From IMG/VR virus record IMGVR_UViG_3300028372_000015, positions 1 through 43,978 of that record: DNA of 43,978 bases. One strand, given 5' to 3'. A model generated the notes under the pieces. That model was not told where the DNA came from. It did no database searches and saw nothing but the letters and a program-made list of their open reading frames with translations. This stretch comes from a virus. The first letter of the stretch is position 1; every line of letters begins with the position of its first letter. The position numbers and the translations under genes were made by a program. This document shows, piece after piece, positions 1,274 through 36,550 of the stretch.

Positions 1274-1489
1274 TTATACTAAACTATCGTGGTATTCCAC
1301 CAACTCTGCGATCATACACTCCCGTGAAGCATTCCACGCCGATTGCCATGTCTCCCAAGAATCATTGAGCGGGTGGGGGTGTTTTGGATAATCCGTCCAA
1401 CAGTACATTTCAAGTTCGTCATTCCACGTACATTGCTTAGCCATCGGCATCGACTTCTCGAACAGCTCCTTACTTTTGGGCATTTGCAT
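1274..1489 (-). CDS. Hypothetical small phage protein
   Basis: The product is 71 residues and rich in Trp, with a W-E-T-W-Q-S-A-W-N-A-S stretch near residues 45-55. Similar W..WQ.AW.A motifs occur in many short phage proteins of unknown role. The start overlaps the end of the upstream gene (1470-1835) by 20 bases, so translation is likely coupled. No function is assigned. Confidence 0.7.
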   Translation of the reverse strand: MQMPKSKELFEKSMPMAKQCTWNDELEMYCWTDYPKHPHPLNDSWETWQSAWNASRECMIAELVEYHDSLV

Positions 1490-1835
1490 CTTCTTCCTCT
1501 TCCTGTATTGCTGTTTTCATAATTTCGTACATCTCAATAACCGCCAGGATTGGGGTGTTGTCGATGTGCATTTTTATTTTACTCGCGGCTTGGGTGGCTT
1601 TTACTCGCAGACGATCACTTTCGGTTGCTGGTCTAGCGTGTGCGCGACTCCACGCCCCCCCACCAACCAGAGAACCGTTTCGCTTAAACCGTTGTCCATT
1701 CTTCAGAATAACTTGCGTTTTAGTGGTACGCTCGACTTCCCTGATATCGCCGTGGAGGTCACCGAAGCCCCCGTAACTTGCCACGTACAGACTATCGCCC
1801 TTAACTGTTTCTTCTAAGGGATTCATAATCTTCAT
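1470..1835 (-). CDS. Hypothetical protein, 121 residues
   Basis: I do not recognise the family. The protein has a basic middle (VILKNGQRFKRNG near residues 42-54) that could be a small beta-barrel, then a helical C-terminal half ending in a run of Glu (EEEEDA). The start forms an ATGA overlap with the stop of the gene at 1832-2071, which supports operon membership. An alternative ATG lies three codons downstream. Confidence 0.7.
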   Translation of the reverse strand: MKIMNPLEETVKGDSLYVASYGGFGDLHGDIREVERTTKTQVILKNGQRFKRNGSLVGGGAWSRAHARPATESDRLRVKATQAASKIKMHIDNTPILAVIEMYEIMKTAIQEEEEDANAQK

Positions 1836-4437: not shown

Positions 4438-4445
4438 CATAAATA
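4438..4445 (+). promoter_or_regulatory. T4-type late promoter octamer CATAAATA
   Basis: CATAAATA differs from the T4 late -10 TATAAATA at one base. It lies 35 bases upstream of the chosen start (4480) of the kinase-like gene, as expected for late expression of an internal virion protein. Confidence 0.55.
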
Positions 4446-4479
4446 TATGGCATATAACCCAGTTCAAAAGGATTCTACC

Positions 4480-5115
4480 ATGAAATTGTACGAATTGCTA
4501 CAAGAAGCCCCCCTTCCTTCCGACTGGGATCCTTCTATGTTTGATCGTCCCGGAACCTCATTCAAAGCGATGGTGCAATACGCTAAAGACCGAGCCGAGC
4601 AGGTAGGCAGAGGTTCAGCTCGCGTTGCTTTCAAGGTACCTTACAAAGGCAGGGATACCGTAATCAAGATTGCCATGAACACCAAAGGATTGCGCCAGAA
4701 TGAGGAAGAAACTCGGCTGATGGATGACTGGTATTTGGCTAGTCTCGGTATAACCATTCCATTGATCGACTATGACGAACGCAACAGTATGCCCACATGG
4801 ATACATACTGAGTATGCCAGGAAAATCTCAAATAGACAATTAGACGGGTTCTTTGGCGGGATATCGTTCAATGCGGCACTGGAGTTCATCTCAAATGAAC
4901 GTAACTACCGTGGGCCTATGACGTTTCAGTTGCCTGATTCTGTCCATGATAATGACACGTTTAGCTCCTTGCACGATTTGCTGATGTCCTATGACCAGCT
5001 TGCTGTTGGGGATTTATCCAGGAAGGCTAACTGGGGGCTCTATCGTGGAGATCCAGTAATCCTGGATTTAGGCGGTACCGAAACAGTGCTTCGTGAACTG
5101 TATGGTGGCCGGTGA
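4480..5115 (+). CDS. Kinase-like protein with probable capsid-targeting leader
   Basis: I start the gene at ATG 4480, behind AAGGA, rather than at the upstream ATG 4447; this gives 211 residues. The N-terminus MKLYELLQEA resembles the capsid-targeting sequence of T4 internal proteins, and LQE/A fits the LxE or IxE cleavage site of the prohead protease gp21. The rest looks like a protein-kinase fold: a Gly-rich loop (GRGSARV near residues 43-49), a VIKIA Lys (63), and near the end GDLSRKANWGLY (177-188) and VILDLGG (193-199), matching the catalytic and DxG regions. If correct, it is packaged in the head and injected with DNA to modify host proteins. Kinase activity is inferred. Confidence 0.72.
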   Translation: MKLYELLQEAPLPSDWDPSMFDRPGTSFKAMVQYAKDRAEQVGRGSARVAFKVPYKGRDTVIKIAMNTKGLRQNEEETRLMDDWYLASLGITIPLIDYDERNSMPTWIHTEYARKISNRQLDGFFGGISFNAALEFISNERNYRGPMTFQLPDSVHDNDTFSSLHDLLMSYDQLAVGDLSRKANWGLYRGDPVILDLGGTETVLRELYGGR

Positions 5116-5117
5116 CA

Positions 5118-5759
5118 TCAGTAGTCTAAGTCTGCATTCAGAAGATCTAGCATCCTCTTTACTTCTATGGTGCCTGGAGAGGTTAATCGGATTCGTGACC
5201 TAATACCGGCCATAGATGCAAACTCATCCGGATCTATTTCATTGTTAGCCCCCTCCCAAATTGAGAAGTCCTGATTGAATTTGTTCCACTCAAATATAAA
5301 CTTGCCAGCAGATGACCACACCGCGACCAATGCCCCGTCTTTTTTGTACGATTCGAAATCGCGTTCATTAGAGACGATACACCAGTTCGTGTCTTTACAG
5401 AATTTCTTCGATGCGGCGAAGTTATCCAGTTGAAAAAATACGAGACCGTTGTTTCCTCTCATTTCTGTATAATCGGGAACCCGGTCTTCATCTATCTGGC
5501 TAAGGAACCTTCTCAACGAACGAAGCTCGGACGGGTTATCATTAAGCATACTGATCCAGTGCCCGACATCCCGTTCCCTTCCACTGATCCAATTGTTTGA
5601 GACATATTCCTTGAACTGATCGGCAGTCCCGTTACTAATTAAATCCCTGACTTGCGTAGAGGTAGAGTTATACTCCGCCAAACTGTCCATAGCATTCCGG
5701 ATCGCCATCTTAAAATCTTTATAGCTTTCGGTTATAATAATAAGCTCGTCAAATTTCAT
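5118..5759 (-). CDS. WC-motif protein with probable capsid-targeting leader
   Basis: The 213-residue product begins MKFDELIIITES. This is similar to the leader of the kinase-like protein, with ITE/S as a possible prohead-protease site. The C-terminal half has FCKDTNWCIVSNERDF (about residues 121-136) followed by a strand pattern GALVAVW and KFIFEWN. Proteins with a TxWC motif followed by such strands are common in T4-like and flavobacterial phages, but their function is unknown. It converges with the kinase-like gene, with two bases between them. Confidence 0.7.
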   Translation of the reverse strand: MKFDELIIITESYKDFKMAIRNAMDSLAEYNSTSTQVRDLISNGTADQFKEYVSNNWISGRERDVGHWISMLNDNPSELRSLRRFLSQIDEDRVPDYTEMRGNNGLVFFQLDNFAASKKFCKDTNWCIVSNERDFESYKKDGALVAVWSSAGKFIFEWNKFNQDFSIWEGANNEIDPDEFASMAGIRSRIRLTSPGTIEVKRMLDLLNADLDY

Positions 5760-6230: not shown

Positions 6231-6944
6231 TTAGAATGTTTTTGTTGGATCATCTAAGAAAGACTTTTTAGTGTCTTCATCTCGGGGATCAAATTCGTCT
6301 GTCATATCCGTATTGGGATCGTCTACGGTAACATCATCCGTATCTACTCCATTGTACGGAACTGCATCATCCCCCTCAGTGTCCACTTGATCGGTGTAAG
6401 CACCCAAGATACCGCCGTTGTCTCTGTTGATTGGTATTTCATTAGCCTCTCTCTTGTTGTCGAGAGGGATTGCTTTTAGAATGGAGTAGTACTTCTCGTA
6501 TTCCTGTTCACGATCAACATCAATAATCTCCCAGAATGCCCTCTTTCCGCCAAGCGAGAAGAATGGCATCTCAATGACATCGCCGGTTCGTATCACTCTT
6601 CCTAATTGGTCATATGAGTTGACGTGGACTCTGAATAGCTTCTCATCTCCGATCGGATTCATTATACCGAACTGGGAAAGGTCCACCGATTGCTCTGGGT
6701 TTTCTTCATTCCAGATATTGATCTCTACGGGAGTTGATGCGTATGCTCTATCTGGGACTTCCATAAAGGCGGTAACTTGAACGTCGGATGTGGTAGGGGT
6801 CGCATTTTCTCTACTTCCGAGATACAGCCACACAAAAGCAGTCTTCCATGTTAGGGAGACTTTCTCATATGCCAGCCTACTCTGTAGACTTCTCGTTTTG
6901 TTTCCGTAGACGCCAACTTTAGGACGTTTGACACTCCACACCAT
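6231..6944 (-). CDS. Head-closure neck protein, T4 gp14-like
   Basis: The 237-residue product resembles T4 gp14. The recognisable part runs from QFGIMNPIGDEKLFRVHVN through GDVIEMPFF to KRAFWEIIDVDREQEYEKYYSI (about residues 91-155). In gp14 the matching order is FGMQVQDE, then GDLIYFP, then a FEI strand and a YQLG segment. T4 gp14 joins gp13 to close the filled head and accept the tail. The last 70 residues are an acidic, Asp/Thr-rich tail that is probably disordered. The gene lies near gp15 and gp4, consistent with a head-tail joining group, and has a late-promoter octamer upstream. Confidence 0.6.
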   Translation of the reverse strand: MVWSVKRPKVGVYGNKTRSLQSRLAYEKVSLTWKTAFVWLYLGSRENATPTTSDVQVTAFMEVPDRAYASTPVEINIWNEENPEQSVDLSQFGIMNPIGDEKLFRVHVNSYDQLGRVIRTGDVIEMPFFSLGGKRAFWEIIDVDREQEYEKYYSILKAIPLDNKREANEIPINRDNGGILGAYTDQVDTEGDDAVPYNGVDTDDVTVDDPNTDMTDEFDPRDEDTKKSFLDDPTKTF

Positions 6945-8727: not shown

Positions 8728-9405
8728 ATGTCAACCGTATACGACTACAATCATGATGATCAAATTGAAAAATTTACACTTCAGGTTACCCGTGCGATGT
8801 CCGGGTTTCAAGTGAGGGCTGACAACCAAGGAGGTCTCCAGCGAGTCTCTGTGGCTTTTGGCGCACCTGAGCGTATCGTTGCAGCCATCAACTCCAATGA
8901 TGACAAGTTCACCAACTATACCGTTCCTATGATGGGGTTGATGTTGACCAGTATGGACATTAACCCGGACAGGATGACTACCTCGCATTTCAGTGAAGCT
9001 TTAACCTTCCGGGACGACCTTGGTGATCATAAGCAGCTAAATCGTACTGTTGGGGTACCTATTGAGCTTTCATACGAAGTGGCAGTATATGCCAGCTCAA
9101 TATCCCAACTATTGGAGCTGGTTGAACAAATATCACTGACACTCTACGACGGTATCACGGTTCAGAAGTCAAATGACATCACCGACAGCAACTATCGAGC
9201 CAAGCTTAGGTTGTCTGGTATCGGCAGTGGCATCAGTTATCCGGTCGGTACTGGACGTAACCTTGCCACCGTTAACTTGAATCTGGTACTGAACATCATG
9301 CTGAGCTATCCGCAGTCAGTGATTGACACCTATATTGAGCAAGTAGAACTGGGGACTGGTATTGATGGTAGTGGTACTCTGAGAGACATCGAAGTAATCA
9401 CCTAA
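8728..9405 (+). CDS. 15: Tail sheath stabilizer and completion protein, T4 gp15-like
   Basis: The 225-residue product aligns by eye with T4 gp15 along most of its length. It shares the order RVSVAF (gp15 RVPITYA), a PMMGLMLTSMDINPDR strand region (gp15 LPRINLHLVDFSYNAP), IELSYEVAVYASSISQLLELVEQI (split here for length: YEVAVYASS, then LLELVEQI; gp15 YELSIFTRYEDD then QIVEQIL), and a late LVLNIMLSYP strand. gp15 forms the ring that caps the tail, stabilises the sheath and docks to the neck. It has its own late promoter and is alone on the plus strand between minus-strand genes. Confidence 0.75.
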   Translation: MSTVYDYNHDDQIEKFTLQVTRAMSGFQVRADNQGGLQRVSVAFGAPERIVAAINSNDDKFTNYTVPMMGLMLTSMDINPDRMTTSHFSEALTFRDDLGDHKQLNRTVGVPIELSYEVAVYASSISQLLELVEQISLTLYDGITVQKSNDITDSNYRAKLRLSGIGSGISYPVGTGRNLATVNLNLVLNIMLSYPQSVIDTYIEQVELGTGIDGSGTLRDIEVIT

Positions 9406-34618: not shown

Positions 34619-36550
34619 ATGAAACTCGTTATTGAACACTTCCAGAAATACGCTCTGAAAGCGGTTGGAGATATTGCCAAGAGCTCTAACATGCTTTCAG
34701 AATCCCAACATGCAGAGCTTTTTGGCGACATAATTCACGTAGTCGAAGGCGAAACCGATCCCGATCGGTACGGTCACGGTATCGAATATACCATTTTTCG
34801 AACTGTATGGGATGATCCTATACGGTTTCCTTCCTATGCAGACATGTACGATGCCCTCCATCCGGAGAAAATCGACCCACCTAAAGATAAATCAAAAGCG
34901 ATCACCCGCGCAGTAACCCACTTCAAGAAGTTTAAAAGTGATATGGGTTCTTCTTTTAGGGATCAACAAGAGCGTCTGGAATGGCGGATTGAAGAGCTAT
35001 CAACAAAAGAGGGCCGCGAAGCTAAACGGGGAGAGAAAATAAATCCCGGTAACCGGTCAGCCAAAGAAGATACTCGGATCAAGAAGATCAATGATGCCGA
35101 ATTGTTTCCCGGTAAATTCTATACGAATAAAACAAAAATACCTTCACGTAATTGGTATGCCTGGTGGGCTGTATGGAGACGTCGCCAGCAGTCTGTTCCG
35201 CCCAATCCATCATCCAAGATTTTGGATCTTTCTCATCTCGGTACTCGGTGGGAGAAGCATTTCGTGATGGGATATTCCATGGATCAAAGTACTACCTATG
35301 AGGTTTGGTATAACACCTACAACAGCTCGTTCTCGGTTCATGATAAGAACGGCAATCCCGTACTTGATTCTGCACCCACAGTACGCCAGGCTATTAGTGG
35401 GATGTTTACTATCATCGCTAAGGTATCTGACATGGATTCTACGTACATCCGGCAGGTACGCGGGTCTGTAGATAAAGCATTTACCCATACGCTCGACCAG
35501 AAAGCATTCCAGGCCGATGCCGAAGTAGTGAAAAAAGCAGAAAAAGAAGAAAAGAAAACTCGGGCCGACAACAAACGTGCTGAAGACGAGATCAACCAAC
35601 AGGCGAAGTCCAGCCAAGCATGGAAGGAATTTAAGGCTAACAACTTCAAAGTACCAGAAGATGAAAGCTCTTATACCTCTCAGGCGGCACCTTCTGGGAG
35701 TGCCGGTGCCGGTGCCGGTGCAGAAGATGCCGATCTGCGTCAGCGAATTGCCGGTACATTGGACGGATCGTATAATGATTCAGAAGGTGCCTTCGCTTCT
35801 CGTAAAGACAACAAAGAGACATCTACTAGAAAGAAAAATATGGCGGCGAAAGACCGTAGAGCAGTTAACGACAAAATGGGTAATTGGAGTAATGGGATAT
35901 CGTCCAGTTTTTCCGAAGCCAAGATAATCGAGCTGGAGGAGTCTATTGTCTCTGGCGACGAACTCACCGACGCGAGCAACAATCCGTTGTACAGCAGAGA
36001 AGCAAACCAGCGATCAGTTGTTGCCATGAGCCAGGCCGATAACAGCATGACGAAGCAAATGTTGAGCTCTGATATTATCGGCAGTGTAGAGCAGTATGAT
36101 AAAACGAAATTCAACACCAGCCCGTCCGTATTCAAACGACTGGCAGTGAAGATGTTTCCATTTCTGCGTTCGCGTAAGGCAAATATCCAAACCCCGGTGA
36201 ATACAAAGTCAGTTATCGGATTGCCGTCAAGAGTCCGTGGTAGGTTACATGGGGTCGATGTTCGTGCTGATTTCGTGACAGGATTCTCTTTGGGCAGTAT
36301 TGATATGGAAGTGTGGTATGTCCAGGAGCTCGACCTATATGATTCGAGTAATCTTCTCAAGAAGTTCTCTGTATCAAAACAGAAAGCTGGTTTCTATGTA
36401 TATGATGTTAAGTCCATGCAGTTGATCCAGAAAGACATTCCCTATTTCCGTTTGGCATTGCAAACGGTGTTCCTGAAGATTGGAGCGCCTATGCCAGATC
36501 AAAATACATCCGACAGAAGTAGAGACGACAGAGGTAGGTCTAATCGATGA
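34619..36550 (+). CDS. Large virion-region protein with an internal repeat
   Basis: I do not recognise this 643-residue protein. It has a Trp/Arg-rich part near 180-195 (WYAWWAVWRRRQQ), a Lys/Glu coiled coil near 300-340 and a Gly/Ala linker near 365-373. Two similar modules are visible: FVMGYS...YEVWY...SFSVHD (about 219-245) and FVTGFS...MEVWY...GFYVYD (about 558-600), each followed by a helix with R.A. Their positions, one before and one after the linker, suggest a duplicated domain. It precedes the tape measure and overlaps its start by four bases; a tail or hub role is likely from context. Confidence 0.7.
   Translation: MKLVIEHFQKYALKAVGDIAKSSNMLSESQHAELFGDIIHVVEGETDPDRYGHGIEYTIFRTVWDDPIRFPSYADMYDALHPEKIDPPKDKSKAITRAVTHFKKFKSDMGSSFRDQQERLEWRIEELSTKEGREAKRGEKINPGNRSAKEDTRIKKINDAELFPGKFYTNKTKIPSRNWYAWWAVWRRRQQSVPPNPSSKILDLSHLGTRWEKHFVMGYSMDQSTTYEVWYNTYNSSFSVHDKNGNPVLDSAPTVRQAISGMFTIIAKVSDMDSTYIRQVRGSVDKAFTHTLDQKAFQADAEVVKKAEKEEKKTRADNKRAEDEINQQAKSSQAWKEFKANNFKVPEDESSYTSQAAPSGSAGAGAGAEDADLRQRIAGTLDGSYNDSEGAFASRKDNKETSTRKKNMAAKDRRAVNDKMGNWSNGISSSFSEAKIIELEESIVSGDELTDASNNPLYSREANQRSVVAMSQADNSMTKQMLSSDIIGSVEQYDKTKFNTSPSVFKRLAVKMFPFLRSRKANIQTPVNTKSVIGLPSRVRGRLHGVDVRADFVTGFSLGSIDMEVWYVQELDLYDSSNLLKKFSVSKQKAGFYVYDVKSMQLIQKDIPYFRLALQTVFLKIGAPMPDQNTSDRSRDDRGRSNR

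Follow-up and report, generated by a model that had tools for sequence, protein, structure and literature searches.

Putative T4-like capsid-targeting leaders on two neighbouring phage proteins, one with a predicted kinase fold, suggest injected virion cargo

Introduction

Do the short N-terminal leaders of two neighbouring genes in a viral DNA fragment mark their products as cargo of the phage particle? The fragment (IMG/VR record IMGVR_UViG_3300028372_000015, 43,978 nucleotides, referred to below as the window) was initially annotated from its letters alone. This first-pass annotation likened the leaders of both proteins to those that direct T4 internal proteins into the prohead, saw kinase-like motifs in one protein and a WC motif in the other, and proposed an injected kinase in the manner of T4 Alt. 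Most genes of large phages are of unknown function; a tag of this kind, if it is read correctly, would mark injected proteins directly from the sequence.

The model for such a system is T4. Its internal protein IPIII begins with MKTYQEFIAE|A, and Alt is an ADP-ribosyltransferase that is packaged and injected. Alt and IPI are examples of how such cargo can act, by redirecting transcription or by stopping a restriction enzyme. About ten leader residues suffice for packing of the T4 internal proteins, and gp21 cuts them after L/I-x-E (PMC9026906).

Results

Two convergent genes in a fragment of a T4-like myophage

Inspection by eye pointed to a T4-like myophage as the origin of the window: tail sheath, tube and baseplate genes are recognisable, as are helicase, clamp-loader, RecA-like and ribonucleotide-reductase genes. 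A tblastn search bore out the tail sheath. Being a fragment of 44 kb, the window contains neither head genes nor a gp21-type protease, which we count against the interpretation favoured below. No close DNA relatives were found in the phage collection for bases 1-25,000.

Both open reading frames and their leaders were confirmed where the first-pass annotation had placed them (Table 1). The two genes are convergent and meet tail to tail at 5115/5118. The kinase gene starts with MKLYELLQEAPLP, so that its leader is followed by APLP, and the WC gene starts with MKFDELIIITES. An alternative in-frame ATG occurs upstream of the kinase start, at 4447; the ATG at 4480 is preferred because it has the better ribosome-binding site, as judged by eye, and because the relatives start there.

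Table 1. Coordinates of the features discussed in the text.
Feature	Position	Strand	Basis or remark
T4-late-promoter-like site CATAAATA, consensus TATAAATA	4438..4445	+	35 nt upstream of the kinase start
Likely ribosome-binding site of the kinase gene, AAAGGA	4467..4472	+	read from the sequence
Kinase-fold protein, 211 aa	4480..5115	+	phrog_4301 (unknown function)
Predicted capsid-targeting leader of the kinase, MKLYELLQE	4480..4506	+	cut predicted after E9
WC protein, 213 aa, predicted second cargo	5118..5759	-	sequence, L008 homologue
NWC motif, residues 125-127	5379..5387	-	comparison with the L008 homologue
Leader of the WC protein, MKFDELIIITE, predicted to target it to the capsid	5727..5759	-	cut predicted after E11
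Further leader sequence considered a candidate targeting tag, MKIYNLYSTLLE			

The promoter-like site belongs to a wider pattern. Of the eight ATAAATA sites in the window, five precede a gene start by 19-35 nt, the highest count among 21 letter permutations; their total number is not above chance and only the placement is notable. At 10-60 nt before genes ATAAATA is commoner than any other arrangement of these letters, both in the window and in a complete relative, Alishewanella phage Slicko01. Its targets in Slicko01 include the major capsid protein, the scaffold, the sheath and four leader genes, among them the kinase. A search before the WC gene revealed no late promoter, a further point counted against our interpretation.

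A conserved putative cleavage motif at a moving junction

A leader motif was defined from the T4 literature as K, R or N at residue 2 and [LI]xE followed by A, S, G, T or N, with the E at residue 8-16. This strict motif is present in 3 of 64 window genes versus 0.23 expected from internal positions; the p value of about 0.001 is a guide only, since the residue-2 set was picked after the leaders had been seen. Without the residue-2 condition the motif is not significant in the window alone (p 0.10). The same motif occurs in 13 of 195 genes of Slicko01 versus 1.35 expected (p 0.0005, the lowest value that the test can give). The third window gene that fits, 1470-1835 (-), begins with MKIMNPLEETV and may do so by chance. 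Among the tail genes, a 643-aa protein at 34619-36550 (+) starts with MKLVIEHFQKY; it has no family match (best phrog E 0.055).

Next we compared the kinase with its relatives. A profile scan yielded 24 kinase loci. The comparison covered 23 non-redundant kinases, of which two come from phage records. The T4 gp21 site [LI]xE stands directly before a conserved xPLPxDWD in 22 of the 23, while 8% of the other glutamates in the same proteins end an [LI]xE motif (p about 1e-23 if the sequences are treated as independent, which relatives are not). Among these proteins the leaders are 19% identical and the domains 46%, and leader length ranges from 8 to 15 residues. Three relatives are fusions with ART-like or GNAT domains, in which the [LI]xE site is internal and located at the domain joint; the fusion from L010, for example, has ITE|A after its ART-like domain. 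A GNAT-like domain precedes the kinase in L035:5665-6621, with LGE|A between the two domains, and in L033:5596-6630, with INE|M at this position. In the kinase ORF170 of XacN1 the predicted cut would expose the N-terminus APLPDDWDDAMYNDR; the text of the XacN1 paper makes no mention of ORF170, and this is counted against our interpretation.

An invariant glutamate with the conserved PLPxDWD of the domain directly behind it would also be expected if the leader were an ordinary N-terminal extension, its LxE being kept for folding or activity and not for a protease. We consider this very improbable, because the length of the leader varies, because it is not ordered in the structural model (see below) and because the same leader appears on unrelated proteins of the same genome.

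Rows of leader genes in related phages

Relatives carry whole rows of leader genes, a feature that had escaped the first-pass annotation. Slicko01 has eight consecutive genes (85888-91558) that begin with variants of MKIDxLYESLLEE and continue with different domains, one of which is the kinase. Five genes in a row start with MKI[KR][DE]LF in L008, including a WC homologue directly before the kinase, and similar sets of shared leaders occur in L010, L024, L040 and L066. Within the window the kinase and WC leaders are only broadly alike, and it is in the relatives that the sharing is clear. Over 21 loci, leader sharing by unrelated proteins of one genome has a permutation p of 0.0016; about a third of these loci carry the signal and the other two thirds have none of their own, which counts against our interpretation, as does the absence of any other leader gene near several of the kinase loci.

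The commonest neighbours in the relatives are ART-like proteins. One of the leader proteins with a YHST or YRGM motif has a clear Pfam match to ART-PolyVal; most of the others are putatively ART-like, as judged by their motifs. A protein from L040 (6681-7286, leader MKANEFITE) matches the T7 gp0.7 kinase family phrog_15752 (2e-6); in this case a leader of this kind precedes a kinase of another type.

The longest row was found in Agrobacterium phage Atu_ph07, where eleven consecutive genes begin with M[KR]W.QL[TN]E or a close variant (L060:27485-38593, corresponding to Atu_ph07 39484-50592). In most of them a YRGM motif follows the leader, and the first has a Zeta-toxin-type P-loop domain as well (Pfam 1.5e-14). 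Counted from the record these genes are gp53-gp63, a numbering that agrees with the gp31 tail fibre of the paper describing this phage. They fall inside the block of CDS 31-76, from which, taken as a whole, 29 of 46 proteins were detected in virions (PMC6102473); this position is counted in favour of our interpretation. In the text of that paper gp53, gp54, gp57, gp60 and gp62 are unmentioned.

A gp21-type protease in the relatives

Peptidase_S77 was found in 13 of 19 related records, including nearly all of the large ones, and also in Atu_ph07; where it is lacking, the related record is a fragment of between 10.8 and 114.6 kb. In Slicko01 a protein annotated as prohead core protein (138612-139223, L018:44212-44823) matches Peptidase_S77 and is therefore probably the gp21-type protease. 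Among the proteins of Slicko01, those of the core are enriched in the LxE motif, above all the scaffold protein.

In T4 this motif is also the cutting site of core proteins, for instance gp22 and gp67, and the window pair lies near a gene at 8728 that matches tail sheath stabiliser families and one at 6231 with a weaker match to a virion structural family. The two proteins could accordingly be head or neck assembly factors that are cut by the protease but have their role within the particle and none in the newly infected host. We regard this role as improbable, since the proteins with the same tags are enzyme-like and differ between phages (ART-PolyVal, Zeta-toxin domain, T7 gp0.7-like kinase, GNAT). 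The reading of the leaders as T4-like targeting sequences, put forward in the first-pass annotation, has held up on several grounds: the conserved site at a moving junction, genome-specific leaders on unrelated proteins, the gp21-type protease in relatives and the placement of late promoters.

The kinase-fold protein

The kinase-like loop and DxG motifs that had been noted in the first protein proved to be part of a canonical set of catalytic residues. They occur in the canonical order G43-x-G45-S-A-R (the glycine loop, residues 43-48), K63, E77, D178, N184 and D196-L-G198. Structure prediction, which had been proposed as a check, gave a confident model with a two-lobed kinase fold (mean pLDDT 90.1). 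The only stretch of at least three residues listed below pLDDT 50 in this model is residues 1-9, which is exactly the leader. A Foldseek search with the model returned kinase-fold chains with E values down to 1.5e-5 and TM-scores of only 0.35-0.48, so that the kinase superfamily is clear and the subfamily is not. The Pfam search gave no match for either this protein or the WC protein. Among the phrogs, the window kinase matches phrog_4301 and has no match to the T7 gp0.7 family (phrog_15752). Outside phage contigs the window kinase family is almost absent from the collections searched.

It is possible, but rather unlikely, that the protein phosphorylates RNA or a small molecule instead of a protein, or that it is a pseudokinase. 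The best Foldseek match is the tRNA kinase TkArkI, aminoglycoside phosphotransferases rank high, and the Pfam result can be read in the same way. D178 is nearly but not fully invariant and is replaced in at least one homologue, from L034. On the other side, the loop glycines as well as K63, E77, N184 and D196 do not vary across an alignment of 22 sequences. Furthermore, protein kinases and PRPK have the top VIA Z scores of the model, from 8.7 up to 9.9, with many rows tied.

The WC protein

The support for the second protein is thinner. The NWC motif and the leader that the first-pass annotation had described are both present; the rest of the evidence consists of one full homologue, one relative of the WC region and a poor structural model (pLDDT 45). 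The sole full homologue, L008:9349-9891, is 30% identical. It starts with MKIKELFE, the same sequence as in the adjoining kinase, and has LLE|S at the end of the leader; the cysteine of NWC is kept and the tryptophan is not. L032 encodes a leader-bearing protein whose WC region is similar, and the two phrogs that it matches are those matched by the window protein. A comparison of the WC protein with the phage collection gave no match, and two further WC scans of viral contigs yielded no new family member.

Discussion

Taking these results together, we estimate a probability of about 0.78 that both genes encode T4-like virion cargo injected with the DNA, the first a kinase-fold enzyme and the second a WC protein. 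The same kind of tag on rows of enzymes in related phages indicates that the kinase is probably carried in the particle and delivered with the DNA. The findings argue strongly for packaging and leader cleavage, and we infer injection, catalytic activity and a host target as further parts of this explanation. The interpretation given in the first-pass annotation is therefore supported in part; T4 Alt and the internal proteins are the precedents on which the presumed virion presence, cleavage, injection and early role in takeover are modelled.

In this scheme the first 9 or 11 residues would attach the protein to the scaffold core while the head assembles late in infection; a gp21-type serine protease would then cut after LQE or ITE and leave the mature protein loose among the packaged DNA. 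In the next infection the cargo would enter the cell with the DNA, and, provided that the tag has been interpreted correctly, the kinase family would be active on the host ahead of phage gene expression. Late synthesis would be compatible with a role at takeover only for a protein that is packaged for the next infection. With its full catalytic set the kinase-fold cargo would most likely be a protein or RNA kinase, and it would modify a host component, either of transcription or translation or a defence protein.

The resemblance to T4 IPI, IPII and IPIII lies in the short N-terminal leader ending in [LI]xE and in the unrelated mature parts behind similar leaders (PMC9026906). MKLYELLQE is close to the leader of IPIII given above. 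The T4 internal proteins, however, are small and basic, whereas we propose a kinase-fold enzyme and a WC protein as cargo, and in the relatives a row may comprise as many as eleven tagged genes. T4 Alt, too, belongs to the host-modifying enzymes and has a short propeptide of the gp21 type, but it is an ART and not a kinase fold, and injection and a host target are here suggested by analogy. Polyvalent and MuF-fused effectors contain several host-modifying domains (ART, GNAT and others) and are thought to be injected (PMC9503650); they come as a single large polypeptide or fused to a head protein, while here most genes encode a single domain behind a short leader of its own. The prohead protease of phiKZ-like phages and SPN3US removes N-terminal propeptides of ejection proteins after glutamate (PMC5694885), but its motif is A/S-x-E and most of the propeptides exceed 100 residues, as opposed to [LI]xE and about 10 residues here.

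The targeting mechanism itself is known from T4. Kinase cargo and long rows of tagged enzymes are, to our knowledge, apparently undescribed in the literature searched; no report of a capsid-targeted kinase was found there, most subscription journals lying outside it. We lean towards the broader view that many T4-like and jumbo phages carry an "effector magazine", i.e. rows of unrelated enzymes (ART-like proteins, kinases, acetyltransferases and WC proteins) with genome-specific targeting tags, and that the tag alone predicts injected proteins. A scan of genome contigs revealed one short MAG contig with the same kind of gene row (L066). This 5-kb contig, which was binned as a Spirochaetaceae MAG and is probably phage DNA, has the kinase between genes with MRV[AT][ED]LFEG leaders.
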